Assembly: GCF_002368395.1 (NCBI RefSeq) | Contig: NZ_AP018254.1 | Span: 5,022,001 to 5,086,000 of the forward strand | Reading direction: 5' to 3' | Source: Calothrix sp. NIES-3974 | GTDB taxonomy: Bacteria > Cyanobacteriota > Cyanobacteriia > Cyanobacteriales > Nostocaceae | Length of the DNA: 64,000 nt | Shown here: positions 30,954 to 49,465 of the stretch, one piece after another | Layout of the letters: every line of letters begins with the position of its first letter | Position numbering within the stretch: position 1 is the stretch's first letter | The notes under the pieces: model-generated | Database searches by the model: none | Seen by the model: only the letters and a program-made list of their open reading frames with translations | Told to the model about the DNA's origin: nothing | Program-made: the position numbers and the translations under genes

Positions 30954-33900
30954 TTACACGGTTAAATTCACCTTCATAATCACATCGTTGTAATCCCGGT
31001 CTCCACCTAGGGGTAAATCTTCAAATCCCCAGGTGTTATCCCCAAGTAAACGAATGTGGTCTACTTGGTTGGGGTTTGCACCGAGGAAGGAGAAGTATAC
31101 TTTCGGGTCGTTGTTGGGGTTATTATCTAGTAGTGCTTCCGGTCTTCCGTTGGCGATAATAAAGGGTGCTAGGAGAGTTCCTCCGGTGAGGGTGGTGGTA
31201 AATTTAGCTGTGCTTTGGTTGCTGACGGTTAAATCAATGGGGATGCGTTGATTAATTGCTGCTTGGGTATATCCGGTTTGTCCGGGGAGAATATCAGCAA
31301 TTCCGTCTCCGTTGGTATCAATTCCCCCGTTGGTGTCGGCAATGCGGTAGAATCCGACAAAGTTGTTAAAAGCAGCTTCTCGATACAGGGTAAATTCGGC
31401 GGTGACGTTACCTGTAATACCCCGTAAATCCATGAGTTCTGCTTGGTTTCCTCCTTGGAGATTGCTACCTAAAGCAGGGGTTTGATTGGTAGCTTGGATT
31501 CTGACTTCTAAGTCTTTGAAGTCCGTGGAATTACCAGTACCATCTTCCCAGGAGAGGGTAAAGGTATCATTCCCTGTATCGGTAATTCTCTGGGTGGTTT
31601 GGGAGGAAATTAAAACGTTGGAGAGGGGAGTTTTCTTGGCGATCGCACTGTCAAGTGTACCGTCTTTAATCAGTAGGAAGCGTAGGTTGTCTCCGGGGTT
31701 GAATGTTAGTAAGCGGGTGAGGTTCTGGGGATTAAATCCGTTGGGATTGTTACCGATGATGGAAAATACGGTTCTGGCTCGTTGCAGTGCGGCTTCGGTG
31801 TATCCCGCTTGACCAGGAGCGATACCGTTAATTGTCCCCTGGGCATCATCGACCGTAAATACACTCAGTTCGTTGACTAAATTACTACTGCGTCCCAGGA
31901 GGGATACTTGGAGTTGGGGTTGGGTTCCAGAAATGGTAAAGATATCATTACTACCACGGTTGAGTTTGGGTGGGGTGGAGATGACGGGGATAACTGGATC
32001 AACTTCAAATTTGCTGACGATTTGGGGTTGTCGGTTAATGACGCTACTAGGGTTGGTTTGCAGTTGTTGACGGGTGTAGGGGTCGATACCGTAGGTGGTG
32101 ACGGTGAGTTTTTGGGTAACGGGGTCAATGTCGAACTCTGTCCAACCGTAGGTGTGGGTGGCAATGTAGTCCCCTTCTAGGAGTCTAGCCTTAATTAAAC
32201 CGTTGGCTGGTTCTAGATTACGGTTTAAACCGATGGGGTCGTACCCTAAAGCTGCAAGTTGTTGGTTGACCAGGTTCTTGATAAAGTCGTCTTTGTCGTT
32301 GATGTCGTCGTCTGCATCGTTTGCGACGGGGAGGGTGTCGTAGAAGGCTTTTTGTTGGGGGGTAAGTAAACCTGCTGCTAGTGCTAGTTGTGCGACGGTT
32401 GGTCCAAAGGGTGCATCAAAGGCCACCGCACCTGTGGTAATCTCAAAGGCGTTGGTGGCAATTTGGGTTTGACCGGGTGCGGTTTGGTAGGTGAGGTTGT
32501 TGACGACTGTTCCGTGAATGTCTGCTGCAACGAAGACGACGTTCTTGATTTTGTTGTCGTTGATAAATTTCAGGATTTCTGTCCTTTCTGCTGCATACCC
32601 TTCAAAGCGGTCGGAAGCTGCTACCACACCCAGATTCTGGATGGGTTCGGGTACCATGATGAATTTCCAGGTAATCCCGTTTTTTTCCGCTTGCAGTAAA
32701 TCCCGTTTCAGGTCTTCTAGTTGGGGTCTTCCCAACATGGTACGATTGGGATTGAAGGATGCGGCTAGGAAGTTAGCAACCTCTCTGGGGTCGGTGGGGT
32801 TGGCTACGTCCTTTAATCCTGGGTCACGGAAGGAGCGTGCATCGAGGATAAAGGTGGCGGCATCACTACCAAAGGTATTATAACGGTAAAGTTGCCGTTC
32901 GCCGTCGGTGCGTGGGTCTCCAGTTTGTCCGTAGAAGCGGTCTTGCAGGGGGTTGTATTCCTGGAAGGCTTGTAAACCGTTTTCGTAGAGGGGAGAATCG
33001 TTTACGAATCCGGAAGTTGCACCAAAGAGGTTTTGTTTGGCTGCTGGTGCATTCGTTAAATCTTCTCCTCCCTGAAAATCGTTCACGACTTCGTGGTCGT
33101 CGATGGTTGCGAGGATGGAGGTTTTTGACCGTAAATCCCCCCAGGTGTTTTGGGCAAATCTGAGGCCATATACTTCTGCGTGTTTGAGGCGGAAGTCATC
33201 TAGGGTTGTGGCTTGGGCTTTTTCACTACCGTCGAGATTTCTGAGTCCTGGTGAGGGATAATCGCTGTAAATTGTGTCACCATGCAGGACGAATAATTCT
33301 AAACTACGTTCATCGGCATTGGCGATCGCTGGGTAAGGTCCTAGTTCTCCTCGCCAATCCCCGGATACACCGAATCGAAAACCGGCTTTGGTTCCCAGGG
33401 GGGCGGATGTCTTGAATTGTCCCGTGGCCGTATTCCCCATCGGGTCAATGGCTCGGTAATAATACTGGGTGTTGGGGGTTAAGCCGGTGACATTGACTTT
33501 GACTGGTTGTAGGGGATTGGTGGCATTTGCTGTCACCCGACCGACGATGGTACTAAAGTTGGGGTCGGTCGCATATTCAAAGGTGACGTTACCAAGATTA
33601 CTGGTTCTTGTCCAGAGAACGGTGGATGTTTGGGTGGTATCACCACTGGCGATCGCATTGGGGAAGGGGGGTGTAGATTTGGTTACTGGTAGCTCTTTGG
33701 GTAGTTCTAGGAGTCCTAGTTTATTGGGTACATTAGTACTGAAATCGTTATCATTGATGAGGGCTAGGGTATTGGGTGCTACCAGGGCTAATCCTTCCAG
33801 TTTTTCCACACCGGTGTAACCGAATTTGGCTGCGTTGGCAATTAGGTTTTTGCTAACGGGTCGGATATTGGCTGCGGTGAGTTCTGCTTCTGTGAGTTGT

Positions 33901-36900
33901 TCAATGGTTTTACCAGCAGGGAGGGTAAAGTTGGCTGGGTTGTTGATATTGGTAGCTTGTGCCAGGTCGATGAGGTAAATTAGTTTGTTGGAGGCGGTGG
34001 TGGATAAGTCATCCCGTTCAACGACGGCAAATTTACCATTGCCAAGGGATACCGCATCTCCGATTTTATCAGTTTTGGCGTTACCTGTACCAGAAATGTC
34101 ATCCAACAAGTATAAATATTCCCCTGTCACCTGTTTTGTGGTGATATCAAATTCGAGAATGCGTAAATTGCGGGAATTGCGGGAGACGGTATCACCGGTG
34201 TTATCCGGGTTATCAATGGCACTTTGGATGAAGGCGTAAAGTTTATTACCTTCTAGGGCGACGGCTTCAAAACCGCGATTAGCGCGACGTTGGGCGTAAA
34301 CTGCTGGGAGGATGGGTGTGCCGAAGTTTGTACCGCCGTTTTGGCTGGCATCGGTGGGAGTACCGAGGGGGATGAATCGGTCAATTAATTTACCCGCGCT
34401 GTTGAAATGGTAAATCGCTGGACGGTATTCATCCACCATCCAGAAATCGCCATTTTCTGCAACCACAATTCCTTCTAAATCTGCACCGAGGGGGTCGTTG
34501 TTGAGGACATTACCGTTGGGGTCTACACCAATTTCATCGGTGTAAGCGGTATTTTGACTCCCGATTTGCAGGTTGGGTAAACCGGTTAGGGGGGTAGTTC
34601 CATCGGGACGGAAGAGTTTGGTACGGTTGGTGATGGTGATTTCCCCGGTGGAACGATTGAGTTCAAAACTAATTACTTCTGGTTGGAAGGAGGGTAATAG
34701 GAATGGTCTTCTTCCTTGGGATGGTTCTCCGTTGGGTCCGCGGTCGGTATGGGTGACAAATTGGAGATTTCCGTTTGCAGCAATTCCCCGGAAGTATAGA
34801 CCGGAGAAACCACCGAGGAAAATATCTTCTCCGGTGGAGGTGGTTCCCAGTTTGGGGAGGTTGGTGAAGGTGTAGTTGGTTAATTGGGGTTGGGGGGAGA
34901 AATCCAGTTGAGCGATAATGGGGTCGTGGTCACTTGCTCTTTGATTGGTTTCCACAAATTCCGAGTTGACATGGACGATATCAAATTTTGCGTTTTCCGC
35001 TAAACTTGCACTGACGAGGATATGGTCGAGGGATTGGGAATTACCTTGGAAGTTGAAGGTGTAGCGTTCGTTTTCAGGTAGAGTTTCCGTCAAGTTGGTC
35101 AAACTAGAACCGAGAACGGTTTTGATGGGGGAGACAAACTCAAACTCGTTCAAATCTCCCAGGACGACAACTTTTGCTCGCACATCCGTCGCTAAAATCC
35201 CATCCACATAGTCCTTTATCACCTGTGCTTGCGCTCGACGTTTGTCCACACTACCATTAACGGTGGGGTCTTCCTGACGTGCTTCAAAGGGTTGTTGTAC
35301 ACCTAAAATTGGAGCGCTACCACCCTTAGAAGAGAAGTGATTATTCACGATGGTGACTTCTTCCCCATTAAAGATAAATTTACCAGCCAAAGGTAGACGA
35401 CTGGCAAAGAAAGGATGATTACTATCCGTTTGTTGAGCAGTGGGGTTGGTAATCGCAGTCAGGGAACCAGAGACAAAACTAACACGTGCTGGATTATAAA
35501 GAAAAGCAGTACGGATATTGCCACCCGGTTCACCACCATTGGTATTATTACCAATAAAAGGATTGTCGATAAATTGATAACGAGGACCACCAGCAGCTGC
35601 AATCGCATCTACTAATCTTTGTAGGGTTTGGTCTGCTGCTATCACCCCATCGCTTGTAGAACCACTATTATCCTGAATTTCCTGCAAACCGATGATATCC
35701 GGTGCTTTTAAATTATTCACAATTTGATTCGCGATCGCATCAAATCTTCCGTCTGCGATATCTTTATCTGCGTCATTATCATTGGGGTCAAGATTCAAGA
35801 CGTTATAGCTAGCAACGGTGAGTTTATCAGCACTTCCGGTTAAAGTGGTGGTTTTCGGTTGAATCGTTGCAGGGGTGACAGTAAAAGCTTGGGTGGGATA
35901 AATCTCAAAGTTACCAAAACTATAACCAACTACCCCGGTGACATCTCCCAATCTAGCACCCACATTGACTTGGGGAAAGGTAAATCCGGGTAAAATTCCC
36001 GTATCCTGTTGAATTTGTACCCTTTCTGGATTAAAGTCATTCGGACTGATATTTAACGTCCCCCGTTGACTAATCCCCGTCGCACCCCTACCATTATCCA
36101 CAACCGTAAAGATTTCTCCAAACCGGTTTGTCCCAGCAACTGCGATCGCATCCTTTGCTGTCACCAACATCCCTTCCAAGGACTCAAAGAAATCAATCCC
36201 ATCCGTATTGGGGTCAAAGCTGGTAAAAGCATCATCATCAATATTTGCAGTGGGAGGAATTCTTCCACCACTACCAATAATTGTCGCAGCAGGAAGGGGA
36301 TTTCCACTGGATCTGACGGTAATAGTGGGACTTCCCCCAATTTGGGTCGTAGATAAATTACCAGTAGCAACACCACCAGGGAAAAATTCACTCACCCGAC
36401 CACGAACTTGGACATCATCACCAACTCTGACGGTGGGAGCAGAACTGGTAAATACAAAAATTCCATCGGAAGTCGCATTATTTCCATCTCCCGTCCGGTC
36501 TTGGAGATAAAAACCGTTACTATCCACTGCTGTCACAATCCCGGTGGTAGTCACCAATTGATTCACCAAGGGGGAAGTATGACCAGCACCCTGGATTTGA
36601 TAAATTGGGGTGATTACATCATCGTTATCGATAATGGTGATATTTTGGGAAGTGGTAGTTCCCAGGGTCAGACCAGCAGAGGGATTGGTAATGGAAATGG
36701 TAGCAGTTTCCGTCCCTTCCACCTCCGAATCATCAACTATGGTCAAAGTCGCAGTACCCGTAGTTTGACCACTAGGAATCGTAATCCGAGTATTGCTGAG
36801 GGTATAATCACCAGCAGTAATACCACCTCCCGTCACCGTTAAATCAACAGTTTGCTCAGAAGAGACAGCAGTGGATGCGATCGCGGTGATTGTAATTACG

Positions 36901-37526
36901 GTTCGCTCTGCTTCTGTTCCGGAATTAGGGTCAACCGATAGATTCACACTTGGGTTAGTTGTCGCTGCTGTAATACCGGTAAAAGTGACGTTATCAAATC
37001 TCAGAGTACCATTGGGACTATAGATAGAAGTGGGTGTTGTTGCTCGATAGTTACCAAGACTCGGATCGAAAGCTGCAACCACCCGAAAAGCAGCGTTAGG
37101 ATTATTATTTAATTCCCTTACGGAACTAAAATCGACATTACGGTTAAACCATGCATCACCTTGATTTGCCGTAAATGTCTGGAAATCAACAAAGTTTGTC
37201 CCATCGGTCGAATATTGAACAACAACAGTATTTGCAGAAGTGTTGCTGTGACGAATATCAAAGTTAAAAATAATGCTTTCAAATCCAACTGTACTAACTC
37301 GAAACTCCACCCCCTCAGTTCTATCTCCCGTACCGAGGTTTGGGTAACTAGTTGTATTCCAACCGGAGTTATCATTCGTTCCTGTCGGGAAACCTGCTGC
37401 AAAAGTTGCAGTAGTTCCCAGTAAATTTGCTGTTCCCGTACCAATAGCAGGATTAGTAGTACCTGTATTGGTCGCGTTATCTGGTGTGGGGGAATTAAAA
37501 TTCCATTGTGTAATATTGGTAGACAT
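30954..37526 (-). CDS. Giant secreted multidomain nuclease/phytase-like/PhoD protein with DUF4114 end
   Basis: A 2190-residue protein without an N-terminal signal peptide, predicted to be exported by the neighbouring type I system. Domains in order (approximate): beta-rich N-terminus 1-185; Calx-beta 190-300 (FRVSTVGF.., TGTATLTIVDDSEVEGTETA); OB-like extracellular nuclease part 305-450; endonuclease/exonuclease/phosphatase 568-885 with complete active-site motifs (ASYNVLN, IGLQEIQ, LGDLNEFEF, ASDHDPI); phytase-like esterase domain 890-1275 (DLEGIVVAENGDFWMVDEYR); PhoD-type phosphodiesterase 1285-1835 (IASGDTTQTSTVLWTR, HGDTIYSDYP, IDDHEVVNDF, ADIHGT). The last 340 residues end in a DUF4114 module (GFEDLPLGGDRDYNDVIMKV) shared with the next gene. 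Together these could degrade DNA/RNA, phytate-like esters and phosphodiesters outside the cell. Phosphate control is expected but no clear PHO box was found. Confidence 0.88.
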   Translation of the reverse strand: MSTNITQWNFNSPTPDNATNTGTTNPAIGTGTANLLGTTATFAAGFPTGTNDNSGWNTTSYPNLGTGDRTEGVEFRVSTVGFESIIFNFDIRHSNTSANTVVVQYSTDGTNFVDFQTFTANQGDAWFNRNVDFSSVRELNNNPNAAFRVVAAFDPSLGNYRATTPTSIYSPNGTLRFDNVTFTGITAATTNPSVNLSVDPNSGTEAERTVITITAIASTAVSSEQTVDLTVTGGGITAGDYTLSNTRITIPSGQTTGTATLTIVDDSEVEGTETATISITNPSAGLTLGTTTSQNITIIDNDDVITPIYQIQGAGHTSPLVNQLVTTTGIVTAVDSNGFYLQDRTGDGNNATSDGIFVFTSSAPTVRVGDDVQVRGRVSEFFPGGVATGNLSTTQIGGSPTITVRSSGNPLPAATIIGSGGRIPPTANIDDDAFTSFDPNTDGIDFFESLEGMLVTAKDAIAVAGTNRFGEIFTVVDNGRGATGISQRGTLNISPNDFNPERVQIQQDTGILPGFTFPQVNVGARLGDVTGVVGYSFGNFEIYPTQAFTVTPATIQPKTTTLTGSADKLTVASYNVLNLDPNDNDADKDIADGRFDAIANQIVNNLKAPDIIGLQEIQDNSGSTSDGVIAADQTLQRLVDAIAAAGGPRYQFIDNPFIGNNTNGGEPGGNIRTAFLYNPARVSFVSGSLTAITNPTAQQTDSNHPFFASRLPLAGKFIFNGEEVTIVNNHFSSKGGSAPILGVQQPFEARQEDPTVNGSVDKRRAQAQVIKDYVDGILATDVRAKVVVLGDLNEFEFVSPIKTVLGSSLTNLTETLPENERYTFNFQGNSQSLDHILVSASLAENAKFDIVHVNSEFVETNQRASDHDPIIAQLDFSPQPQLTNYTFTNLPKLGTTSTGEDIFLGGFSGLYFRGIAANGNLQFVTHTDRGPNGEPSQGRRPFLLPSFQPEVISFELNRSTGEITITNRTKLFRPDGTTPLTGLPNLQIGSQNTAYTDEIGVDPNGNVLNNDPLGADLEGIVVAENGDFWMVDEYRPAIYHFNSAGKLIDRFIPLGTPTDASQNGGTNFGTPILPAVYAQRRANRGFEAVALEGNKLYAFIQSAIDNPDNTGDTVSRNSRNLRILEFDITTKQVTGEYLYLLDDISGTGNAKTDKIGDAVSLGNGKFAVVERDDLSTTASNKLIYLIDLAQATNINNPANFTLPAGKTIEQLTEAELTAANIRPVSKNLIANAAKFGYTGVEKLEGLALVAPNTLALINDNDFSTNVPNKLGLLELPKELPVTKSTPPFPNAIASGDTTQTSTVLWTRTSNLGNVTFEYATDPNFSTIVGRVTANATNPLQPVKVNVTGLTPNTQYYYRAIDPMGNTATGQFKTSAPLGTKAGFRFGVSGDWRGELGPYPAIANADERSLELFVLHGDTIYSDYPSPGLRNLDGSEKAQATTLDDFRLKHAEVYGLRFAQNTWGDLRSKTSILATIDDHEVVNDFQGGEDLTNAPAAKQNLFGATSGFVNDSPLYENGLQAFQEYNPLQDRFYGQTGDPRTDGERQLYRYNTFGSDAATFILDARSFRDPGLKDVANPTDPREVANFLAASFNPNRTMLGRPQLEDLKRDLLQAEKNGITWKFIMVPEPIQNLGVVAASDRFEGYAAERTEILKFINDNKIKNVVFVAADIHGTVVNNLTYQTAPGQTQIATNAFEITTGAVAFDAPFGPTVAQLALAAGLLTPQQKAFYDTLPVANDADDDINDKDDFIKNLVNQQLAALGYDPIGLNRNLEPANGLIKARLLEGDYIATHTYGWTEFDIDPVTQKLTVTTYGIDPYTRQQLQTNPSSVINRQPQIVSKFEVDPVIPVISTPPKLNRGSNDIFTISGTQPQLQVSLLGRSSNLVNELSVFTVDDAQGTINGIAPGQAGYTEAALQRARTVFSIIGNNPNGFNPQNLTRLLTFNPGDNLRFLLIKDGTLDSAIAKKTPLSNVLISSQTTQRITDTGNDTFTLSWEDGTGNSTDFKDLEVRIQATNQTPALGSNLQGGNQAELMDLRGITGNVTAEFTLYREAAFNNFVGFYRIADTNGGIDTNGDGIADILPGQTGYTQAAINQRIPIDLTVSNQSTAKFTTTLTGGTLLAPFIIANGRPEALLDNNPNNDPKVYFSFLGANPNQVDHIRLLGDNTWGFEDLPLGGDRDYNDVIMKVNLTV

Positions 37527-37760
37527 AATAATTAATAGTCAATTTTGATTGGTGAGAAAAAGGTACGTAGTTGCGCTAGTCTAGGACAACCCTGCGGGTA
37601 TAGCGCCTTGATATTAAAGTTTTTTTCGAGGCTAAAGGCTAAAGCTATTTGCGGTCAAGTAACAGTACAACAAATGCAATATCTCCTACTGATAATGGCA
37701 TAGAAATAATTCTCCTAATTGATGAATTTTTTTGGTTTTTAAAAACCTAGAATACAGAAA

Positions 37761-37890
37761 ATGGCGTTGCTGAATTTGGACATGAATTATCAAATCATCG
37801 TATTTTGTAGAGACGTGGCAATGCGATGTCTCTACATAACGTAAAATTGACAATTCATACAATTAGTATTTGTATCTAACAACGTCCATA
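37761..37890. mobile_element. MITE-like element, copy 1
   Basis: It opens with ATGGCGTTGCTGAATTTGG and closes with an imperfect inverted copy (AACAACGTCCAT). Inside is a palindromic repeat at 37807-37835. A second copy lies at 47687-47840: the openings share GTTRCTGAATTTGGRCATGA (R = A or G) and both contain a GTAGAGACG palindrome. No protein is encoded, so it would be non-autonomous. Confidence 0.65.
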
Positions 37891-37941
37891 AAATGACACA
37901 AATTAACAAATACAACCAATGAATTATCAACAAACATCAAC

Positions 37942-37966
37942 AAAAATAGGGGTATAAAAACCCCCA
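37942..37966 (-). terminator. Terminator of the 5'-nucleotidase gene
   Basis: On the minus strand GGGG, a short loop and CCCC are followed by TATTTTTG, 23 bases after the stop codon at 37989. The stem is short but the T-tract is clear. Confidence 0.6.
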
Positions 37967-37988
37967 TACACATACAAATCAAACCCAA

Positions 37989-40900
37989 CTACACAACCGG
38001 AGCCAGATTCACTTTGATAATAATATCGTTGTAATCTCTGTCTCCACCATTGGGTAAATCTTCAAAACCAAAGGTGTTATCACCCAACAAACGTAAATGG
38101 TCTACTTGGTTGGGATTTGCACCGAGGAATGGGAAATAAACCTTCGGATCATTATTGGGATTACTATCTGTTAATTGCTCTAAAGTACCGTTGACAACGA
38201 TAAAGGGAGCAATAATTGAACCCGCATTTACCCTCGCGTTGACAGTTGATGTTGCTTGGTTTGCGACTTCTAATTTGATGGGTTGATTGTTTGCACCGCG
38301 CACCAAATTATTTAAAGCTGCATCGATATAGGAGCGGCTATTATTGGGATTGACACCACCAACTAAACCATCCGCATTATCAATCCGGTAGAAATAAACT
38401 TGGTTGTTAAATGCAGCTTCTCTGTACATGGAGAAAGTTGCATCTACTTGACCAGTAATACCTCGTAAATCAATAACTTCCCCTTGAGTTCCATTTTGCA
38501 AACTAGTTCCCAACGCAGGGGTTTTATTGGTTGTCCCCACCTTGATATTAAACCCTTCTACATTGATATCCCAACCATTATTAGTGATATTAGAAATAAA
38601 ATTATTCCTGGTGGAGAAAATAATTTCCTTGGATTTTCCAGCTTTAATATCGTCAGCAGTACCGTCTTTAATCACAGCAAAACCAATTTGACTACCCAGA
38701 CCAAATTCCAAAATCCTGGGATTATCCCCTGCTCTAAAACCATTTGGTTGATTACTGATAATGGAAGAAATCACCCGAGCTTTTCCACTTTCTAAGAGTT
38801 GCTTCAAATCAGGATTACCATTACCATCAAACTCAAATACCACCAACTCACTCACACGGGAATTGGGATTTACCGTATTCACAGTAAATTGTAAATTGGT
38901 AGCGCGACCTGTGATTCCGACCACACCGGGAGTAGAACCGGGTTGAACTTTACCAACAAAACCTGCAAAAACACTATCGGAACGGAAAGCTAAATTCTGA
39001 ATCCTGGTATCCTGTGCAGCAGGAACATCTGCAACCTTAAAGGCTTTTTCCGGAGTGTTAAAATTCGCTAACAAATACTCCGCAAAAGCATCCTGTTCCG
39101 TTCCCGAACGCGCAAAATTAGCTTTTCCTGGGTCAAACTTACTGGGGTCAACAGCACCATCAATCCTACCATTGCGGTTGCGGTCTGTGTCGGTTTCCCC
39201 AATTAAATCAACCCGATTGGCAAAGCTAGGATTAGCTGTGACAAAATCTGCAAAGGGATAACCATCACCACCATTAGCAAGGAAACCGAGGGTGACAATG
39301 CGAATTCCCCGATTCGGATCTCCCTGGACTTGACCCTTTTCAACCAAAGCTTCCTTAACACTACCATCCGGATTCAAAATTGCCGCACTTTGAATCCGTT
39401 GTCCAACAGGTTTACTTGCATCAAAACTGAAGGAAACACCACCTATTTGGGGGAATTGACCAGGAGTCGCACCAGGTCTGGTTCCTGCAACACCGTGTTC
39501 TAGCACCTGTTTTAACTGTGCTGCTGTGAGGGTAATTAGGGTTAGGTCGTTATTAAACCGCAGCGCATTTTCCGTATCCAGTTGTGAAATACCACCATCC
39601 GGTTTCCCTGATAACTCGCTTCCTTCCGGGGGAAGTTTTTGTGCTTCAGTTCCACCTGGGGGAGCAATAATTCGCCCAATGTTATCGCGGATACCACCAC
39701 CATTTTTCAAGGACACAACTACGGTGGGGTCTAAACGACGTGCATAATCCAGGTTCGCATCCGCAGTTAAATTACCCAGATTTGTTTCCTCTGTCCGGAC
39801 ACTACCACGGTCTCCATTCAGGAAAACATTGGTAATACCAAAAACATTACTATCTTTCCGTCTAATTACTTCCCGCACAGCATCGGTAATGGCTTTGATT
39901 TCTGGGTCTACCAAATTTTGCGCATTCAAAGCTGCAACCCCTGCTGCATCCGTGGCATAGGCTCCACTGATGTTTTTATCGATACTTGCGGGAATAATCC
40001 GACCCTGGTTATCAAAATCGACAACTAAACGACCAACGTATTTATAATTACCATCCGTATTGACGACGGCGACATCTTCCCCGGTGGCAGATTTGAGTAA
40101 GATGGGATACACACCTTGAGGGGTATCTCCATCTCGCAACCGGTCTGTTTCATCCACCAAGCGAGAGTGGGAACCACCGGCGACGATAATATCTACACCC
40201 TTAAGTTTTCCTGCTAGCTGCTTCTCAATGTCGATTTGTTGCATGTGAGCTAGGAGGATAACTTTATTGATACCAGTGGCAGTCAGGGCATCTACGGATT
40301 TTTGAATTTCTGCCGCTAAAGCATCGATATCGTTCGGGTCGGGAGGAAGAACTCCAACATTGCCCGGGGAAGATATTCTCCGCAGAGTAGGGGTAGTAGC
40401 ACCAACTACACCAATTTTCTCGCCGTTGACGGTAATTACGGTACTCTTGGCAATTTTACCGGGGATATCGCTAGCTTCCTGACCATCAGCAGTCACCAGG
40501 GGTGCAAGGTTTGCATCGGGAGCAAAATTCAGGTTAGCGCTAAGGTAGGGGAATTTTGCACCGGGATACGCACCACTAGGAGCAAGGATGTCTCTGACTA
40601 AACCAGTACCCTGGTCAAATTCATGATTACCAAAGGCGATCGCTTGGAAACCCAGTTCATTTTGAATGATAATGTCTGCTCTTCCCTGTCCTTCTCTTCC
40701 AAGTAGAGGTCTCAGGGATGGGTCTGCTGCTGCATTGAGGAATAATCCGGGAATATAGGCATCACCGGAGGATAAAATCAAGGTATTGGGGAAATCTATC
40801 TGACCATTCCCATCCGCGTCCTGGTTTTTTAAAGCATTCAAGACTGCGCTGAAGCGGGGTGCGTCATCCAATGCAGGAACACCAGCTTCCTGGTCAGATG

Positions 40901-42506
40901 CGTGTAACAGTTGTAGGGTGAAATTGGGTGCTTCAACTTCGTAAATAGTCGCAGTATTACTAACTTCGTTAGAAACCACTATTAAGGGTTTCCCATTAGG
41001 ACTTTCAATTGCAGGAATGAATTTTAACCCTTCTGGACTAATATCACCTTCAGTGCGAATGTACTGAACAAATTGGGGTGCTTCCGGTTTACTTAGGTCG
41101 TAGACCATTACCCCCCCCGTTCTTTCTAAACCAATGAAAGCGTAGGGTTTACCACTAACATAACCGACGGTGACAGCTTCTGGTTCCGGACCTTTGTTGT
41201 CGGAGCGAGTATCGAAGGTTCCTGGATCACCATTGCTATTGAAGATGGTGGGGACAAGTCGAGCGGTGATTTGCTCAAGTTGATCACCACTGTCAAAAAC
41301 TAGCTTACCCTGGTCATCCCAAACGGAAAAGGAACGAGCGCCAAAGGCGTATAATTTATCATAGTCCCCATCCCCGTCAGTATCACCGAGGGTATTGGTA
41401 ATTAGCAAGCGACCCAGGTTGGCATTGTTTTTTAACTGTGTAGCATTGGGGAAAGCGGTCGGGTCAAGAACAACACTATTATTCCCAATTCTCACCTCTT
41501 CGTTAAAGATTCGACCTTCAGTGTTATTGGGAGCAGGTAGAACATTATCAGCAGAAGGACGTAAACGCGCATCTCCTTCATTTGCTGTCACGTAGTAGGT
41601 TTTTCCCCCTACCCGGAAGGACGCAACCGCATCGGGTTGGTACATCCCGAAAATCGGCCAGTTTTGAATATTGATGCGACCACCACCAGTACCATTAACA
41701 CTCCTGTCACTTGCATCTAGACCATTTCCTGGTAAGCTATGGTCTTTGAATCCTAAAGGTAAAATATCGGTAATGATACCGTTGTCTAAATCTAGAACTG
41801 CAAAAGCATTATTTTCTTGCAGAGTCACAAAGGCTTTTTTCCCATCGGGAGATACAGCTATATATTCCGGTTCAAAATCTTGAGCTGCTGTGGAAGGAGT
41901 ACCGTTCGCTAATCTACCAAAGATTTTCACTCCTTTTTGTCTTAACAGCGCTTCCTGTCCATTAAAAGCGCGAAAATCCGCTGTTTTTACCTTGCTTTGG
42001 TCTAAAGCGGTGATATCACCGGAAACATCAATAATACTAATGGAACCTTCCGGGTCAAATGTATAATCTTCACTTGGTTCCCCTTCATTAGCCACCAATA
42101 CCTTTGTTCCATCGGGGGTAAAGGTGAGCATATCCGGTAAAGCACCCACTGTCACCTGAGCAAGGGATCTGGGATTATTAATATCAACTGTGGCATCAAA
42201 AAATACCACTTTACCAGGTTCTGTGAAATTATTGGCTGAAACTGCGACAGCGACAACACTGTTTTGTGTTCCTTTACCTTTTCTAACTGCAACACTTTGG
42301 ATTCCTCCACCGAAGCTAGAAAGGTCAACGTTACCAATTTTGACGGGATTATTGGGGTTGGAAAGATCAACTATTTGCAGTACGGGTTTTCCAGCGACTT
42401 CTCCGGTTAAAAATAGACGTTTGGTTTTGGGGTCAAAGTCTGAGATTTCCGCACCATCTAATTTAATTGTGCCAGCAAATTTCAGTAGTTCTGTTTGATT
42501 GGTCAT
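37989..42506 (-). CDS. Giant secreted choice-of-anchor I / 5'-nucleotidase protein with DUF4114 end
   Basis: A 1505-residue protein starting MTNQTELLKFAGTI with no signal peptide. Residues 1-525 form the choice-of-anchor I beta-propeller-like region (DMLTFTPDGTKVLVANEGEP, SIIDVSGDI, AVSPDGKKAFVTLQENNAF). Residues 528-1190 are a calcineurin-type metallophosphatase plus 5'-nucleotidase C-domain (LSSGDAYIPG, AFGNHEFDQG, SLKNGGGIRDN, LTAAQLKQVLEHGV, GFLANGGDGYPF). The first metal motif reads HASDQEAG, so the usual DxH is DxE, and GGSHSR replaces GGHSH; this occurs in other members of the subgroup as I recall. Residues about 1195-1505 match the end of the 2190-residue neighbour, including GFEDLPNGGDRDYNDIIIKV. 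It would release phosphate and nucleosides from nucleotides outside the cell or at the outer membrane. Confidence 0.9.
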   Translation of the reverse strand: MTNQTELLKFAGTIKLDGAEISDFDPKTKRLFLTGEVAGKPVLQIVDLSNPNNPVKIGNVDLSSFGGGIQSVAVRKGKGTQNSVVAVAVSANNFTEPGKVVFFDATVDINNPRSLAQVTVGALPDMLTFTPDGTKVLVANEGEPSEDYTFDPEGSISIIDVSGDITALDQSKVKTADFRAFNGQEALLRQKGVKIFGRLANGTPSTAAQDFEPEYIAVSPDGKKAFVTLQENNAFAVLDLDNGIITDILPLGFKDHSLPGNGLDASDRSVNGTGGGRINIQNWPIFGMYQPDAVASFRVGGKTYYVTANEGDARLRPSADNVLPAPNNTEGRIFNEEVRIGNNSVVLDPTAFPNATQLKNNANLGRLLITNTLGDTDGDGDYDKLYAFGARSFSVWDDQGKLVFDSGDQLEQITARLVPTIFNSNGDPGTFDTRSDNKGPEPEAVTVGYVSGKPYAFIGLERTGGVMVYDLSKPEAPQFVQYIRTEGDISPEGLKFIPAIESPNGKPLIVVSNEVSNTATIYEVEAPNFTLQLLHASDQEAGVPALDDAPRFSAVLNALKNQDADGNGQIDFPNTLILSSGDAYIPGLFLNAAADPSLRPLLGREGQGRADIIIQNELGFQAIAFGNHEFDQGTGLVRDILAPSGAYPGAKFPYLSANLNFAPDANLAPLVTADGQEASDIPGKIAKSTVITVNGEKIGVVGATTPTLRRISSPGNVGVLPPDPNDIDALAAEIQKSVDALTATGINKVILLAHMQQIDIEKQLAGKLKGVDIIVAGGSHSRLVDETDRLRDGDTPQGVYPILLKSATGEDVAVVNTDGNYKYVGRLVVDFDNQGRIIPASIDKNISGAYATDAAGVAALNAQNLVDPEIKAITDAVREVIRRKDSNVFGITNVFLNGDRGSVRTEETNLGNLTADANLDYARRLDPTVVVSLKNGGGIRDNIGRIIAPPGGTEAQKLPPEGSELSGKPDGGISQLDTENALRFNNDLTLITLTAAQLKQVLEHGVAGTRPGATPGQFPQIGGVSFSFDASKPVGQRIQSAAILNPDGSVKEALVEKGQVQGDPNRGIRIVTLGFLANGGDGYPFADFVTANPSFANRVDLIGETDTDRNRNGRIDGAVDPSKFDPGKANFARSGTEQDAFAEYLLANFNTPEKAFKVADVPAAQDTRIQNLAFRSDSVFAGFVGKVQPGSTPGVVGITGRATNLQFTVNTVNPNSRVSELVVFEFDGNGNPDLKQLLESGKARVISSIISNQPNGFRAGDNPRILEFGLGSQIGFAVIKDGTADDIKAGKSKEIIFSTRNNFISNITNNGWDINVEGFNIKVGTTNKTPALGTSLQNGTQGEVIDLRGITGQVDATFSMYREAAFNNQVYFYRIDNADGLVGGVNPNNSRSYIDAALNNLVRGANNQPIKLEVANQATSTVNARVNAGSIIAPFIVVNGTLEQLTDSNPNNDPKVYFPFLGANPNQVDHLRLLGDNTFGFEDLPNGGDRDYNDIIIKVNLAPVV

Positions 42507-43482
42507 AATTGTTTTTTACTGTTAATTGGAACAGTTAGGTTTAATTACTCTGAGTGTTGGGTGAAACTTGCTGCAACCGAAAACAAAATCAAATACCATC
42601 AACCGTCGATTTTTCAGGAACCTCTCTGAATTTAAAGGGAGTAGTGGAAAATCAATCCATTACTCAACACTTATCAAGAGAAGGAGAAATCCATAAATAT
42701 TAGCTTTGGAACAGGAAGTCGAAAATAACTTGATTTGTCACTCCCCATAGACTCCATACTTATGATGGAATTCACAACTATGATTTCAAATCATGATTGA
42801 ATGGTAATGATTTTGTACACAGAATCGAGAATATTTGACTTTGGGGAAGGATTAATCCAGAAAGTAATTAGAGTGTGTTTTGGTTCAGGAAAAAGACAAA
42901 ATATTCAATGAAAATGATTGAATATTAATTCTATTTGATGACAAGCCTATTCTCGGTCAAGGATGAATGAAATCAATCATACATATACAACTGTTGATTT
43001 TAGCTGGATTAACCTGGAAAATATTGTGCTTTAATTATCCAAGAAATTCCGCATTATTACCTTATGGTAGCTAAATTAAGGAGTGACTATCAAATGATTA
43101 AGAACAGCGATAATTATACAAGATTTCTGTAATCTGATGGATAAGGATTGACTTTGGTAGGTAGAGGGTTATTTTTACTCTGGAAACCGGAAATTATCAA
43201 TTGATATTTCAGTCAGTCAATCAACTGTAACATCCTCATTTGTTTGAAGGTGGGAACTTCTATTTTGAGAATAGTAATCTGTACCCAAAAATTTTGTTTA
43301 AAACCCCACTTCTATGAAAATTATGGGATTATGGAGAGATAGGAATAAGAAGGTGAAACAAATTATTTTAATCTTTAGTGTGCATATAATTAAAATAAAA
43401 TTTATATATTAATAACCTTTTCATAACCTTGTATTGGTATGTTTACTGAGACGAAAGCAAACAAAATAACCCCAAAAATTGT
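42507..43482. promoter_or_regulatory. Divergent intergenic region between cargo genes and secretion genes
   Basis: 976 bases, very AT-rich, with no gene. It must contain promoters for the 5'-nucleotidase gene (left) and the isomerase/exporter genes (right). A partial GGGAGTAG...GAGAAAT repeat is at 42637-42693. Possible weak PHO-box-like strings are AACAGTTAGGTTTAATTA near 42530 and ATTAACC at 43009. Neither shows the expected tandem CTTAACCT-type repeats, so phosphate regulation is not supported by sequence alone. Confidence 0.4.
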
Positions 43483-44274
43483 ATGTTTCCTATGCTGCAA
43501 GTGGGTGATAATCGACTAACATCAGAGCAATTGATCCAGTCTTTGGTAAAATATCAAATGATGCCGCAGTTGCTGGGGGAGTTGATTATTGACAACGTGA
43601 TCGCAGAAATAAAATTAACTCCCACGGAAGCAAAATCAGCCTGTGAGCAGTTAGCAGCAAGATATCAGTTAACTTCACCAGAACAGCGTCGGTTTTGGTT
43701 ACAAAAGAATGGTTTAACCTCAGAACAATTGGATGAAATTGCCATTCGTCAATGTAAAATAGAGAAATTTAAACAAATCAATTGGGGAGGAGATTTAGAT
43801 TCCTATTTTCGCCAACGTAAACCCCAGTTGGATAGAGTAATCTATTCTTTGTTACGTACAAATGATATTGGGATTGCGCAAGAATTATATTTTCGGATTA
43901 GTGAGGGGGAGCAGTCCTTTGCAGAATTAGTTCGGGAATATTCCCAAGGTTCGGAAGTAGAGACAGATGGTGTAATCGGTCCTGTGGAATTGCAGTCAAT
44001 TCATCCAGTAATTGCCAAAATTTTGTCGAGTGTCCAACCACAACAGCTTGTACCACCAACTCAGGTGGGTGAATGGATTGTTTTAATGAGATTAGAAAAA
44101 ATTATTAGTGCAAAATTAGATGAGATGACGCGTCAACGTTTAATTAATGAACGCTTTCATGAGTGGTTACAAGCACAAATTCAAGCTCAGAAATGGCAAA
44201 TTGGGTATGGGGAAGAGGAGATAACAGACGGGATAAGAAAAGTTGAATGCGGTCGAGAAATGGTTTTACAATAG
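43483..44274 (+). CDS. PpiC/SurA-type peptidyl-prolyl isomerase linked to type I secretion
   Basis: A 263-residue protein with a SurA-like helical N-terminus (LIQSLVKYQMMPQLLGELII, about 1-120) and a parvulin-type rotamase domain (about 125-215: AQELYFRISEGEQSFAELVR, EYSQGSEVETDGVIGPVEL, QLVPPTQVGEWIVLMRLEK). No signal peptide is seen, so it probably acts in the cytosol, keeping the cargo export-competent. It stands 330 bases upstream of the exporter gene and in the same direction, an arrangement common in cyanobacterial type I systems. The second Met (43492) is an equally good start; no ribosome site is visible. Confidence 0.85.
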   Translation: MFPMLQVGDNRLTSEQLIQSLVKYQMMPQLLGELIIDNVIAEIKLTPTEAKSACEQLAARYQLTSPEQRRFWLQKNGLTSEQLDEIAIRQCKIEKFKQINWGGDLDSYFRQRKPQLDRVIYSLLRTNDIGIAQELYFRISEGEQSFAELVREYSQGSEVETDGVIGPVELQSIHPVIAKILSSVQPQQLVPPTQVGEWIVLMRLEKIISAKLDEMTRQRLINERFHEWLQAQIQAQKWQIGYGEEEITDGIRKVECGREMVLQ

Positions 44275-44603: not shown

Positions 44604-47600
44604 ATGACTTACCTCAAAAATAACTTGCAAACATTTATTGCTTCCCTACCCGGTTTTGAGCAAATACCAGGGGAAGTATTGACGAGATTATTGACAACGA
44701 TTCAAGCAGGACGCTTCCGAATCGGTCAGAAAATTATTGGTCAGGAAACAATTCCCGACCGAGTAGGAATAATTTATACCGGGAAAGTACGGTTAATTGG
44801 CTATGACCCCCGTACCCAAATGCCAACTACCTTAAAATTACTAGAAACAGGGGATTTTTTAGGGGAAATTAGTTTACTGCGTCAAACACCCTGTGAAACC
44901 GCGATCGCATCTACGGAAGTGACAATTTTAACGATTGCTGCGGCGGATTTTTTGAGTTTAATGGCGAGTTTTCCAGCTTTTGCTCAAGCACGTCAAAGTC
45001 AAGTGCATATGGCGGAAGTGTTTGAAGTTGTGGGGTTACAGTTGGATGCTTTGGCTAATGGAGGAGCGAATCTACGGGAAATTACGGAAAAAGCTGCCAC
45101 GAATGCCACGATTATCAATTTACCTCCCGGTAAACTGGGTGTGGAGGAATTAGAAAGGGAAAAACTTTGGTTTGTCAGTGGTGGTGTTGTCAATCAGAAT
45201 CCCCGTGGTTCCCGTTTAGATTTAAATAAATTGGGGATGATTGAGGTGACGGGGAAGAATTCTGCACGGTTGCTAGGATTAGATCCGGAGGATGTATCTT
45301 GTTTACAGGGTTACGTAGATACAAATACCCAATCTCCCCTACCTTCTCAAGAAATCCTCACCAGTTCCCCATCTCCGGAAGAGGAATTAGAAATCCCCTA
45401 CGTCGAGGAAACAGAACCCCTATTCTCTTCCTCACCTCAGCAGTACAAACCAGATAATCAACGAGTTAAGTATCCATTTGTTCGGGGTCGGGGGGAAGTG
45501 AATGGGACAGCAGCTTGTTGGCAGATGTTATGTCAGTATTTACACATTCCCTTCCGTCGAGATGTGGTGAAACGGGTATTAACAGAGCAGTTTCGCCGAC
45601 AGGAATCTATTTCTTTTCAAGTTTGTGCCTATTTAGGTGAATTAATCGGGTTTAAATCCCAATTAGTAGATTTACTTACCCAAAATGTCACACGTATCCC
45701 CACACCCGCATTGATGCGTTACCAAGGGGAATATGCAGTTATTTATGAAGCTAGCGATCGCGTGATGGTTTTAGGTGTACCGTCCCAGGGAATAAAGCGG
45801 TTTTCACCGGGTAAGTTGATTGCAGAGTTAGAAGCGGTAAGGGAGAATTCGAGTCCCCAGTTGCAAGTTTTGTTGTTGAGTGCGACCCAGGAAACACCCC
45901 AACAGCGTTTTGGTTTAAGTTGGTTTTTACCCTATATATCCCGTTATCGTCGGGTATTGATTGAAGTCTTTTTGGCTTCATTTTTTGTGCAATTAGCGGC
46001 TTTAGTGAATCCGTTGGTGATTCAGTTAATTATTGATAAGGTTATTGTCCAAAATAGTATTAGTACCCTGAATGTATTGGGGGCTTTATTATTAGTGGTT
46101 GGTTTTTTTGAGGCGATTTTAGGCGCTCTCCGCACCTATCTATTTGTGGATACAACTAACCGCATGGATATGGGGTTAGGTTCACAAATTATTGACCATC
46201 TATTACGTTTACCACTACGCTATTTTGAACGACGACCTGTAGGAGAATTAGCTACTAGAATTAACGAATTAGAAAATATTCGTCAATTTCTCACGGGAAC
46301 AGCCTTGACAGTAGGATTAGATGCGGTATTTTCCGTAGTATATATTATTGTCATGCTCTTTTATAGCTGGCAATTAACTTTAGTTGGTTTAGCGACAATT
46401 CCCGTATTCCTATTAATTACCTTTATTGCATCCCCCATTATTCGTAAACAACTACGCCACAAAGCCGAACGCAACGCCGAAACCCAATCCTATCTAGTAG
46501 AGGTAATGTCGGGAATTCAAACCGTCAAAGCCCAAAATATCGAATTGCGATCGCGTTTTACATGGCAAGAAAAATATGCTCGCTATGTCGCTGCGGGTTT
46601 TGATAATGTGATTACTTCCACTTGGGCTAGTGCTACTAGTAATTTTCTGAATAAATTAAGCAGTTTGCTAGTGTTATGGGCGGGAGCTTATTTAGTTTTA
46701 CAAGGGGAATTAACCCTAGGAGAATTAATCGCCTTTCGGATTATTTCCAGCTACGTCACCAGTCCTATATTACGATTAGCTCAACTGTGGCAGAGTTTCC
46801 AAGAAACAGCTTTATCTTTAGAACGATTAAGTGATATTGTCGATACCCCAGAAGAAGGAGAGCAAGACCGAGGAAATATTCCTCTCCCAGCAATTCAAGG
46901 AGCAGTTAAATTTGAAAATATATCCTTCCGCTTTGCAAGCACAGGTCCTCTACAATTAGCCAACGTCAACATTGAAATTCCCCCAGGAAAATTTGTGGGA
47001 ATCGTTGGACAAAGTGGTTCCGGAAAAAGCACCTTAATGAAACTATTATTAAGATTATACGCACCCGAATCCGGACGCATTTTAATCGATGATTATGATA
47101 TTGCCAAAGTCGAACTTTATTCCCTACGACGACAATTAGGAGTAGTCCCCCAAGATAGTTTACTATTCGACGGCACTGTCCAGGAAAATATGGCCCTTAC
47201 CAACCCCGACGCAACCAGCGAAGAAATCATCCAAGCAGCTAAAATCGCAGCAGCTCACGACTTTATCATGAACCTACCTAATGGCTATAATACCCGCGTC
47301 GGAGAAAAAGGAGCAGGACTATCCGGAGGACAAAGACAACGGATTGCGATCGCGCGTTCAGTCTTGCAAAAACCGAAATTACTCGTTTTAGATGAAGCTA
47401 CCAGTGCTTTAGATTACCCAACGGAACGGCAGGTTTGTATCAATTTAGCCAATGCGTTTCGGGGAAATACAGTATTTTTTATTACCCATAGATTAAATAC
47501 AGTTAGTCATGCAGACATCATTTTAGTCATGGATGGAGGAAGATTAATAGAACAAGGAAATCACCAGGAATTAATGGCGAAAAAAGGTCATTATTTTTAT

Positions 47601-47630
47601 CTTTATAATCAGCAGGAAGTGAATTTGTAA
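44604..47630 (+). CDS. Type I secretion ABC exporter with cNMP-binding and degenerate C39-like domains
   Basis: A 1008-residue inner-membrane half-transporter of the HlyB type. Order: a cyclic-nucleotide-binding-like domain (about 10-145; GDFLGEISLLRQTPCETAIAS), a linker, a C39-like domain (about 285-430), six membrane helices (about 445-725) and the ATPase (about 768-1008). The ATPase has Walker A GQSGSGKSTLMK, signature LSGGQRQRIAIARS, Walker B LLVLDEATSAL and the switch His in FFITHRLNT. In the C39 domain the catalytic Cys position (NGTAACWQML, usually DCGAACL) is Gly, and the usual His of the GHFVVL strand is Glu (GEYAVIYEA). It therefore cannot cleave a leader and should act as a cargo-docking domain as in HlyB. 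The HlyD gene follows. Confidence 0.93.
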   Translation: MTYLKNNLQTFIASLPGFEQIPGEVLTRLLTTIQAGRFRIGQKIIGQETIPDRVGIIYTGKVRLIGYDPRTQMPTTLKLLETGDFLGEISLLRQTPCETAIASTEVTILTIAAADFLSLMASFPAFAQARQSQVHMAEVFEVVGLQLDALANGGANLREITEKAATNATIINLPPGKLGVEELEREKLWFVSGGVVNQNPRGSRLDLNKLGMIEVTGKNSARLLGLDPEDVSCLQGYVDTNTQSPLPSQEILTSSPSPEEELEIPYVEETEPLFSSSPQQYKPDNQRVKYPFVRGRGEVNGTAACWQMLCQYLHIPFRRDVVKRVLTEQFRRQESISFQVCAYLGELIGFKSQLVDLLTQNVTRIPTPALMRYQGEYAVIYEASDRVMVLGVPSQGIKRFSPGKLIAELEAVRENSSPQLQVLLLSATQETPQQRFGLSWFLPYISRYRRVLIEVFLASFFVQLAALVNPLVIQLIIDKVIVQNSISTLNVLGALLLVVGFFEAILGALRTYLFVDTTNRMDMGLGSQIIDHLLRLPLRYFERRPVGELATRINELENIRQFLTGTALTVGLDAVFSVVYIIVMLFYSWQLTLVGLATIPVFLLITFIASPIIRKQLRHKAERNAETQSYLVEVMSGIQTVKAQNIELRSRFTWQEKYARYVAAGFDNVITSTWASATSNFLNKLSSLLVLWAGAYLVLQGELTLGELIAFRIISSYVTSPILRLAQLWQSFQETALSLERLSDIVDTPEEGEQDRGNIPLPAIQGAVKFENISFRFASTGPLQLANVNIEIPPGKFVGIVGQSGSGKSTLMKLLLRLYAPESGRILIDDYDIAKVELYSLRRQLGVVPQDSLLFDGTVQENMALTNPDATSEEIIQAAKIAAAHDFIMNLPNGYNTRVGEKGAGLSGGQRQRIAIARSVLQKPKLLVLDEATSALDYPTERQVCINLANAFRGNTVFFITHRLNTVSHADIILVMDGGRLIEQGNHQELMAKKGHYFYLYNQQEVNL

Positions 47631-47686
47631 ATATGCTAGAGACAACCCGTCGAGTCGTCTGTACGGAAATATTAGTAATTGCAAAA

Positions 47687-47840
47687 ATGGTGTTACTGAA
47701 TTTGGGCATGAATTATAATTATTTACATTTGAATTTTGTATTAAAACCAAAATCATTAATCATTATCGTAGAGACGTAGCACCGCTACGTCTCTACAATA
47801 GGTCAAATTTTCAATTTATATTTTTATTCAGCAGCGCTAA
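47687..47840. mobile_element. MITE-like element, copy 2
   Basis: Opens with ATGGTGTTACTGAATTTGGG and closes with TTCAGCAGCGCT, an inverted match to the GCGTTGCTGAA end of the family. It includes the palindrome at 47768-47796 (GTAGAGACGTAGC arms around ACC). It lies between the exporter and HlyD genes, so the operon carries it as a spacer. Another imperfect palindrome is at 47638-47662. Confidence 0.65.
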
Positions 47841-47887
47841 AAAATCATCCTACTCCTGTATGCTGTATTCTACTCAAGGAAAATCCC

Positions 47888-49465
47888 ATGTCTACTAACC
47901 ACACTAACGGTCATAACGGTAACGGAAAATATCATCAATCAAACCTACAAGATGCGCGATTACTGTTAGCGGAAAAACCCGTACCCAAACAACTAAAACC
48001 AGACTTAAAATCCTATCAATTACAACAATCCTCATCAGTCATACTACGTCAATCCCCCATATGGTCACGTGCCATTATGTTAACATTAATGGGATTAGCT
48101 AGTTTTGGTGTAATTTGGGCTAGTATTGCTAAGATTGAACAGGTAGTACCTGCAACAGGACAACTAAAACCTGAAGCAGCAGTCAAAGAAGTTCAAGCAC
48201 CCGTAGGTGGAGTTGTCAAACAAGTCTTAGTAAAAGATGGACAACAGGTGAAAGTAGGAGATTTATTATTAGTTTTTGACACAGAAGCGAACAAGTCAGA
48301 ATTAACAGCTTTAGAAAAAATTCGTAATAGCATCATCCAGGAAAATCAAATTTATCGGACTTTGATTAACTCCGGTGACAATCCAGCAAGTTTATCCCTG
48401 TTAAGCAATAATCTAAATCCCGAAATCGCCAACCTTTTTAAAAACCGCTCTGCTCTCCTAAGAGAAATAGAAACCCTACAGACAGAATTAAATAATAACA
48501 CCGATAATAATAACCTCAATAACCAAGAACAACAGCGTTTACAAGCAGCACAAACAGAACTGACATCTCGTACCAATGCAGCACGCTTAGAAATTGCTCA
48601 AATTAAACAACAAGCCAATCAAAACCAAATCAAAATCCAAGATGCACGCCAAAATTTGATTCTAGAACAGCAAATTCTCACCAAACTAGAAAACTTAGCC
48701 AAAGAAGGCGCGATCGCGCAACTCCAGTATCTCAAACAAAAGCAAACAGTACAAACCCTGAAATCCCAAATTTCCCAACTAGAACAGGAACAACAACGTC
48801 TCAAATACGATGTAGACCAGGGAACAGAAGAATTAACCAACACCGTTGCAAGTTCCCAAAAAAATATCCTGGAAAAAATTGCTGCAAATAAACAACGCAT
48901 TGCCGAAATCGACAGTCAACTATCCCGTATTCTCCTAGAAAATGATAAAAAACTTGCGGAAATCAACAGTAAAATTGACCAAACTAAACTCAACGTCAAA
49001 TATCAGGAATTACGCGCACCAGTCGCAGGGACAATTTTTGATTTACAAGCAAAAACACCAGGTTTTGTTGCCAACCCTAGCGAAAAAATCTTGAAAATTG
49101 TCCCCAATGATAACCTGATTGCCGAAATATTTATCACCAATCGAGACATTGGATTTGTCCAGGAAGGAATGAAAGTAGATGTGAGAATTGAATCCTTTCC
49201 CTTCAGTGAGTTTGGTGATATTAAGGGTGAAGTTAAATGGATTGGTTCCGATGCCTTACCTCCCGACCCTACCCATCAATTTTATCGTTTTCCTGCCAAA
49301 GTTCGCCTCAATCAACAAAAATTAGCAGTCAAAGGTAGAGATATATCTCTACAATCAGGGATGTCCATTAGTGCAAATATTAAAGTTAGGGAAGAACGCA
49401 CAGTTTTGAGTCTATTTACGGAAATGTTTACCAACCAAATAGAAAACCTCAAGCAAGTTCGTTAA
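47888..49465 (+). CDS. HlyD-family membrane fusion protein of type I secretion
   Basis: A 525-residue periplasmic adaptor. A polar cytoplasmic start rich in Asn/His (1-55) is followed by one membrane anchor (about 58-80, AIMLTLMGLASFGVIWASIA), the first lipoyl half (VKEVQAPVGGVVKQVLVKDG), a long coiled coil (about 150-375, rich in Gln/Asn/Glu), the second lipoyl half (YQELRAPVAGTIFDLQAKTPG) and a beta-barrel domain (MKVDVRIESFPFSEFGDIKG). It would link the ABC exporter to a TolC-type outer membrane channel, which is not in this window. A short TTTTTCCGAAAAA hairpin (49480-49496) follows the stop. Confidence 0.93.
   Translation: MSTNHTNGHNGNGKYHQSNLQDARLLLAEKPVPKQLKPDLKSYQLQQSSSVILRQSPIWSRAIMLTLMGLASFGVIWASIAKIEQVVPATGQLKPEAAVKEVQAPVGGVVKQVLVKDGQQVKVGDLLLVFDTEANKSELTALEKIRNSIIQENQIYRTLINSGDNPASLSLLSNNLNPEIANLFKNRSALLREIETLQTELNNNTDNNNLNNQEQQRLQAAQTELTSRTNAARLEIAQIKQQANQNQIKIQDARQNLILEQQILTKLENLAKEGAIAQLQYLKQKQTVQTLKSQISQLEQEQQRLKYDVDQGTEELTNTVASSQKNILEKIAANKQRIAEIDSQLSRILLENDKKLAEINSKIDQTKLNVKYQELRAPVAGTIFDLQAKTPGFVANPSEKILKIVPNDNLIAEIFITNRDIGFVQEGMKVDVRIESFPFSEFGDIKGEVKWIGSDALPPDPTHQFYRFPAKVRLNQQKLAVKGRDISLQSGMSISANIKVREERTVLSLFTEMFTNQIENLKQVR

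Follow-up and report, generated by a model that had tools for sequence, protein, structure and literature searches.

A stretch of 64,000 nucleotides from Calothrix sp. NIES-3974 (contig NZ_AP018254.1, positions 5,022,001 to 5,086,000; the window) carries a hemolysin-type (type I) secretion locus at 30954-49465, in which two genes for giant proteins, P0001 and P0002, lie on the minus strand, divergent from plus-strand genes for a PpiC-type isomerase (P0003), an HlyB-type exporter (P0004), and an HlyD-type adaptor (P0005). Both giants share a C-terminal tail of about 320 aa, 49% identical between them and reaching the last residue, that is composed of DUF4114 units. The five open reading frames (ORFs) were verified at the coordinates noted earlier, so the locus is real (Table 1), and the gaps between the genes hold no confined ORF of at least 80 aa. 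The ORFs and the Pfam and TIGR matches agree with an initial annotation of this DNA, which had described two giants divergent from an isomerase, exporter, and adaptor with nothing between them. That annotation had also called the locus self-contained, which it is not, as no gene for an outer-membrane channel (TolC) is found in it, two TolC-like (OEP) genes lying elsewhere in the genome, and five other HlyB-like genes (at least 536 bits) are present in the genome. All five genes are retained in a genome of the same genus (G139, locus L035), and in Dulcicalothrix desertica PCC 7102 (L168) two tailed giants lie divergent from the exporter with their order exchanged, one bearing choice-of-anchor, nuclease, and phytase-like domains and the other choice-of-anchor and 5'-nucleotidase domains. 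These conserved layouts argue against a chance arrangement.

P0001 matches the Pfam families Phytase-like, PhoD_N/PhoD, Exo_endo_phos, and DUF4114, while P0002 matches choice-of-anchor I, 5'-nucleotidase C, and DUF4114. The nuclease region of P0001 aligns with PDB 9sf9 over the whole domain (E=1.5e-98), and its score against the curated ExeM/NucH model NF033681 stays below the cut-off (210.7 vs 300). Its PhoD region passes the gathering score of PF09423 (154.7 vs 27) and falls short of the equivalog NF058638 (98.4 vs 1000). In the alignment to PDB 2yeq, the position of a metal-ligand Cys of B. subtilis PhoD is occupied by Asp, and because of this replacement the PhoD activity of P0001 is, judging by sequence, not assured. 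P0002 scores as a member of PF02872, with PDB alignments that begin only at residue 594 or 607 and do not cover the first metal motif. The hydrolase repertoire is consistent with the previously proposed phosphorus-scavenging kit, except that the label "phytase-like" of PF13449 does not denote a proven phytase. A hydrophobic N-terminal stretch is absent from both giants, the maximum 12-residue Kyte-Doolittle mean within the first 60 residues being 1.31 in P0001 and 1.13 in P0002, which suggests that, as the initial annotation proposed, both lack N-terminal signals. The 3695 residues of the two giants together contain no cysteine, and neither protein has a PF00353 match or a nonapeptide of the form GGxGxDxUx, features of the RTX repeats that type I cargo ordinarily carries; PF00353 matches exist elsewhere in the genome. 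An RTX route for the giants was rejected on this absence. The P0001 homologue of G139 starts with another N-terminal domain, residues 133-2190 of the window protein aligning with it at 92%, and a remnant of the G139-type start (the ribosome site and first 11 codons, followed by a stop) lies upstream of P0001 at 37701; an N-terminal module swap may thus have taken place at 37501-37701 (-).

P0004 and P0005 exceed the curated cut-offs of TIGR01846 HlyB (760 vs 725.55) and TIGR01843 HlyD (221.9 vs 208.65), respectively, and the closest solved protein to P0004 is E. coli HlyB (PDB 7sgr, E=6e-171). The exporter contains a C39-like domain, whose catalytic positions were set by alignment to the C39 peptidase structure 7n87, itself a weak match (E=0.32). 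Among 81 exporters of this family, the catalytic Cys position 301 is never Cys (S 46, T 16, A 12, G 5, I 1, E 1), position 376 is His in a single protein, and the Asp position 392 is V in 73, I in 7, and A in 1. The C39-like domain of HlyB likewise lacks the catalytic Cys, and a processing (bacteriocin-type) exporter is disfavoured by this loss. HetC of Nostoc PCC 7120 shares the combination of cNMP-like, C39, and ABC domains and differs in its reported active C39 Cys and His (PMC10986499); of the 81 exporters compared here, all lack the Cys and only one retains the His. Their cNMP-like domain has Glu at position 98 in all 81, a site at which one would expect an Arg that binds phosphate. The locus therefore resembles HlyB/HlyD/TolC secretion of RTX proteins in its HlyB and HlyD components, its degenerate C39-like domain, and its large, Cys-free neighbouring cargo with no evident N-terminal signal, and departs from it in the N-terminal cNMP-like domain of the exporter and in a cargo with a tandem DUF4114 tail in place of RTX. 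According to a review, exporters with a C39-like domain correlate with cargo of the RTX type (PMC8277102), and the unusual point here is an RTX-free cargo beside such an exporter. The initial annotation had noted neither the tail common to both giants nor the choice-of-anchor domain, nor, in the exporter, the cNMP-like domain and the degenerate C39 domain. The PpiC-type isomerase may possibly act as a cytoplasmic chaperone of the cargo. At five loci with RTX-type cargo (L036, L040, L096, L108, and L112), the PpiC domain lies inside a larger protein of 690-715 aa and there is no separate small gene.

Table 1. Genes, domains, and intergenic region of the locus (window coordinates).
Feature	Position	Strand	Details
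P0001 cargo giant	30954..37526	-	2190 aa; Calx-beta, ExeM/NucH-type endonuclease, phytase-like propeller, PhoD, tandem DUF4114 tail
P0001 ExeM/NucH-like endonuclease region, residues 327-875	34902..36548	-	NF033681 210.7 bits; PDB 9sf9
P0001 phytase-like propeller PF13449, residues 904-1262	33741..34817	-	E=1.3e-51
P0001 PhoD_N + PhoD phosphatase region, residues 1292-1704	32415..33653	-	PF09423 E=4.6e-45; PDB 2yeq E=1.2e-23
P0001 C-terminal tail, 320 aa, two DUF4114 units, up to stop codon	30957..31916	-	
P0002 cargo giant	37989..42506	-	1505 aa; choice-of-anchor I, metallophosphoesterase/5'-nucleotidase, tail
P0002 choice-of-anchor I domain, residues 18-524	40935..42455	-	PF22494 E=2.3e-140
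P0002 5'-nucleotidase-like region, residues 594-1085	39252..40727	-	PDB 2z1a E=2.4e-40, 5h7w E=2.3e-37; PF02872
P0002 C-terminal tail, 49% identity to P0001 tail	37992..38948	-	
Divergent intergenic region	42507..43482	.	weak Pho-like match, overlapping a 12-codon putative leader ORF
P0003 PpiC-type peptidyl-prolyl isomerase (rotamase)	43483..44274	+	PF00639 E=4.4e-8
P0004 HlyB-type exporter: N-terminal cNMP-like, degenerate C39-like, ABC membrane and ATPase domains	44604..47630	+	TIGR01846
P0005 HlyD-type periplasmic adaptor	47888..49465	+	TIGR01843

The DUF4114 tail and its linkage to the exporter family

In the genome of the window, DUF4114 was found only in P0001, P0002, and one 274-codon frame elsewhere. 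The domain alone proved too loose a marker, being present in 88/99 genomes of the family and 95/120 of the order, and a 319-position profile of the tail was therefore built. All 124 uncut tail ORFs of the two locus sets described below (118 distinct tails, one tail each) end 0-7 residues past this profile; a 125th is cut by the end of its locus and stands outside this count. The tail was modelled by AlphaFold2 from 68 sequences with a mean pLDDT of 93.8 and a pTM of 0.91. Searching the profile against solved structures gave nothing convincing (a single match, E 0.72), and the model found no PDB match in Foldseek at E<=0.001. The highest probabilities among the 50 Foldseek matches listed belong to the calcium lectins BC2L-A (0.96) and BclA (0.92), matched as single domains with target TM scores of 0.54 and 0.53 and weak E values of 0.047 and 0.082, respectively. 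The tail is also borne by bodies of adhesin type (DUF4347, cadherin) and, at L116 (1520-10963), by an RHS-type body that has a von Willebrand type D domain besides its RHS repeats. No statement of DUF4114 as a type I export module was found in the literature, in a search that reached few subscription papers.

The N-terminal part of the exporter occurs in 98/99 genomes of the family and 110/120 of the order, and its linkage to the tail was followed from both sides. Comparison of 148 exporter rows with 150 DUF4114 rows, among the matches listed, placed a DUF4114 match within 20 kb of 21 of the 87 exporters with at least 45% identity, 20 of them upstream, vs 3/61 for more distant paralogues (Fisher p=0.0015; about 0.8% expected), the 45% cut having been picked post hoc from the list. 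Evidence on upstream versus downstream placement comes solely from this comparison of 87 and 61 listed exporters, as the 80 exporter neighbourhoods that were then scanned with the tail profile consist mostly of upstream sequence (at least 12 kb in 66/80). Tail matches were found in 23 of these 80 neighbourhoods, amounting to 29 ORFs, and the reverse search from 24 aligned tails (best 80 of 355 loci) recovered the exporter in 20/80, counts that are non-independent, since both locus sets include close relatives and 6 tail sequences are common to them. At the level of the order, 45/120 genomes have the tail and none of the ten exporter-less genomes does (Fisher p=0.013), a co-occurrence that is weak because the exporter is near-universal; in at least 10 of the 45 the tail lies within 15 kb of an exporter, nine times upstream, across six families. 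Linkage of tailed cargo to the exporter family thus recurs far above expectation, and the initial annotation's pairing of a hemolysin-type exporter with cargo lacking evident N-terminal signals is supported. The full pair of nuclease giant and 5'-nucleotidase giant was seen beside the exporter in no more than two genera, that of the window strain and Dulcicalothrix (domain search in the flanks of 160 loci).

Other lineages of the exporter have, in the same upstream slot, proteins ending in a D-[FI]-hydrophobic motif. Among the ORFs of these neighbourhoods that reach 300 aa and terminate in D[FI][FVI], 24 of 25 contain RTX nonapeptides, the exception being a tail protein, vs 12/125 tail ORFs. 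Of the 80 neighbourhoods, 22 have tailed cargo no more than 13 kb away and 16 have proteins with RTX-like endings; 33 show neither type, and in 9 the upstream sequence is too short. The exporter family is accordingly not dedicated to phosphorus cargo, and most relatives of the exporter stand beside other genes. On a quick exporter tree of 80 rows, 3 changes suffice for the 38 labelled rows (22 tail, 16 RTX-type), whereas 300 label shuffles averaged 12.5 and never went below 8. Clustering of tail against all other loci is weaker, at 14 changes, with 2/300 shuffles as low. Tail proteins resemble RTX proteins in cysteine content and differ from other ORFs: the median is 0% in tail proteins (66/121 with none) and in RTX proteins (52/58 with none), and 0.60% in 542 other ORFs.

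Phosphorus hydrolases are favoured among tailed cargo near the exporter, yet they are also found away from it (L115, L166, and L193). The comparison set 27 of the 29 exporter-linked tail ORFs, two locus-edge fragments being excluded, against 65 tail ORFs from exporter-less loci (28 from L116-L151 and 37 further), of which L172 shares a contig with the exporter-linked L141. The exporter-linked proteins comprise EEP 9, phytase-like 10, GDPD 7, PF02333 phytase 6, 5'-nucleotidase 3, PhoD 1, and RTX 1, and the exporter-less ones EEP 5, phytase-like 10, GDPD 4, PF02333 6, 5'-nucleotidase 4, and RTX 9. EEP (p 0.004), GDPD (p 0.013), and phytase-like domains (p 0.029) are commoner near the exporter (Fisher, uncorrected). 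At L042, a single tailed giant divergent from the exporter bears nuclease, phytase-like, GDPD, and PF02333 phytase domains together.

Proposed export route and its alternatives

Type I export of the phosphorus kit is well supported as an inference from the locus and its recurrence in relatives. We further consider it probable, with considerable room for doubt, that the DUF4114 tail serves as the export module of the two giants, replacing RTX repeats. According to this model, the tail would remain unfolded in the calcium-poor cytosol and deliver the giants to the exporter's degenerate C39-like domain, and passage would be C-terminus first, by way of HlyB, HlyD, and a TolC-like channel encoded elsewhere. 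Outside the cell the tail would then fold on calcium, in the role that RTX repeats have in ordinary cargo, and the exported enzymes may jointly degrade nucleic acids, phosphodiesters, and nucleotides to phosphate. A tail that folds on calcium fits such an RTX-like role. Somewhat less firmly, at slightly better than even confidence, we propose that cyanobacteria use the tandem DUF4114 tail as a separate kind of C-terminal type I export module, portable between proteins and taking the place of RTX, that the exporter family is split into RTX- and DUF4114-carrying lineages, and that the final 320 residues could place many giant cyanobacterial proteins, among them phosphorus hydrolases, adhesins, and oxidases, on this route. 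The parts of this scheme were already known; their combination is new.

Several observations weigh against this model. The exporter is missing inside the flanks of 60/80 tail loci (best 80 of 355), and PF02333 phytase (p 0.17) and 5'-nucleotidase (p 0.41) are not significantly enriched near the exporter (27 vs 65 proteins). Inherited neighbourhoods alone could produce part of the clustering on the exporter tree, as the shuffle test does not remove plain inheritance of neighbourhoods. Some giant frames of distant genomes contain several tail copies, for instance three listed in a 6432-codon frame of G007, so that a lone copy at the C-terminus is not the rule everywhere. One of the five further HlyB-like genes of the genome also exceeds the cut-off, and the relation of the tail family to calcium lectins means that the tail could be an anchor.

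This last point underlies the main rival of the export-module model, in which the tail is a calcium-dependent, lectin-like anchor to the sheath or exopolysaccharide, while export depends on a signal in another part of the protein or confined to its final residues. Calcium lectins of this type may also end at the motif found here, and terminal position alone is for that reason not decisive. The presence of the tail on adhesin-type bodies and the lectin matches of the structural model, weak as their E values are, both speak for an anchor. A published paper links DUF4114 to mannose-binding lectins such as BclA and reports that mutation of a putative calcium site in the domain of PilY1.1 alters motility (PMC9109919), PilY1.1 and BclA sharing with the window cargo the DUF4114 family and a proposed calcium site. 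In PilY1.1, as described there, DUF4114 lies in the N-terminal part, whereas in the window cargo it is a tandem at the extreme C-terminus and linked to an exporter. Anchoring alone does not predict the upstream placement or the way in which tailed and RTX cargo alternate across the exporter tree, and we regard it as an unlikely full account of the tail, although it deserves serious weight and the two roles are compatible.

A different account, which we rate as improbable, holds that the exporter serves another substrate, such as a peptide, and that the giants leave through another HlyB-like system or otherwise. The five further strong HlyB-like genes would offer such a route, and cyanobacterial bacteriocin clusters are reported to contain C39 transporters together with HlyD and a rotamase (SurA) (PMC3140520). 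The absence of the C39 catalytic Cys from 81/81 exporters, unlike the protease-active HetC (PMC10986499), and the recurrence of tailed or RTX cargo upstream of the exporter argue against it. That large secreted enzymes merely happen to lie beside an unrelated ABC exporter seems very improbable: the restriction of the full pair with exporter to the own genus and Dulcicalothrix, among the loci examined, would be in keeping with chance, while the linkage counts (21/87 vs 3/61 among the matches listed, 23/80, and 20/80 of the best 80 of 355) run against it.

The movement of giant enzymes across two membranes in cyanobacteria is poorly known. If the export-module model is correct, an entire class of secreted proteins would become predictable from a single feature of their sequence. 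It would also explain the exit route of multidomain phosphorus-scavenging enzymes, extend C39-like-domain exporters beyond RTX cargo, and make the tail a portable tag, possibly usable for protein export from phototrophs.

Possible phosphate regulation and neighbouring features

The divergent intergenic region contains, at 43102 (-), a Pho-like three-box match that is weak, yet the best in the window, and that falls within a block conserved in the congener G139. The opposite strand of the same block carries an overlapping 12-codon ORF with a Shine-Dalgarno sequence (43078-43133, +); the ORF and its stop are conserved in the congener and the rest of the spacer less so. The conserved block can be read as a putative leader peptide or as a candidate binding site. 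Across the genome, a two-box Pho pattern is not above its reversed control (434 vs 567), and with a weak site and a genome pattern no better than the control, the Pho box failed as proof of phosphate control.

Gene sets of similar description in other cyanobacteria lend outside support to a role in phosphorus use. In Synechocystis PCC 6803, phoA-nucH is a Pho operon in which, by description, an alkaline phosphatase gene adjoins one for an extracellular nuclease (PMC1906773), much as similar functions lie together in the window; its reported Pho boxes are only weakly matched here, and the terms secretion, HlyD, and ABC transporter are absent from that paper. In Nodularia, phosphate limitation is reported to induce genes for a phytase-like phosphatase, a metallophosphoesterase, and a DUF4114 protein, which are neighbours by locus number (PMC9846622).

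Among the minor features of the region, the intergenic segments 47631-47887 and 37527-37988 contain short inverted repeats of the GTAGAGAC...GTCTCTAC type. A toxin-antitoxin pair of Phd/YefM-ParE type (49680-50244, +) lies immediately 3' of the HlyD gene, and a transposase gene of the Tn5 family is located at 62139-63497 (+).

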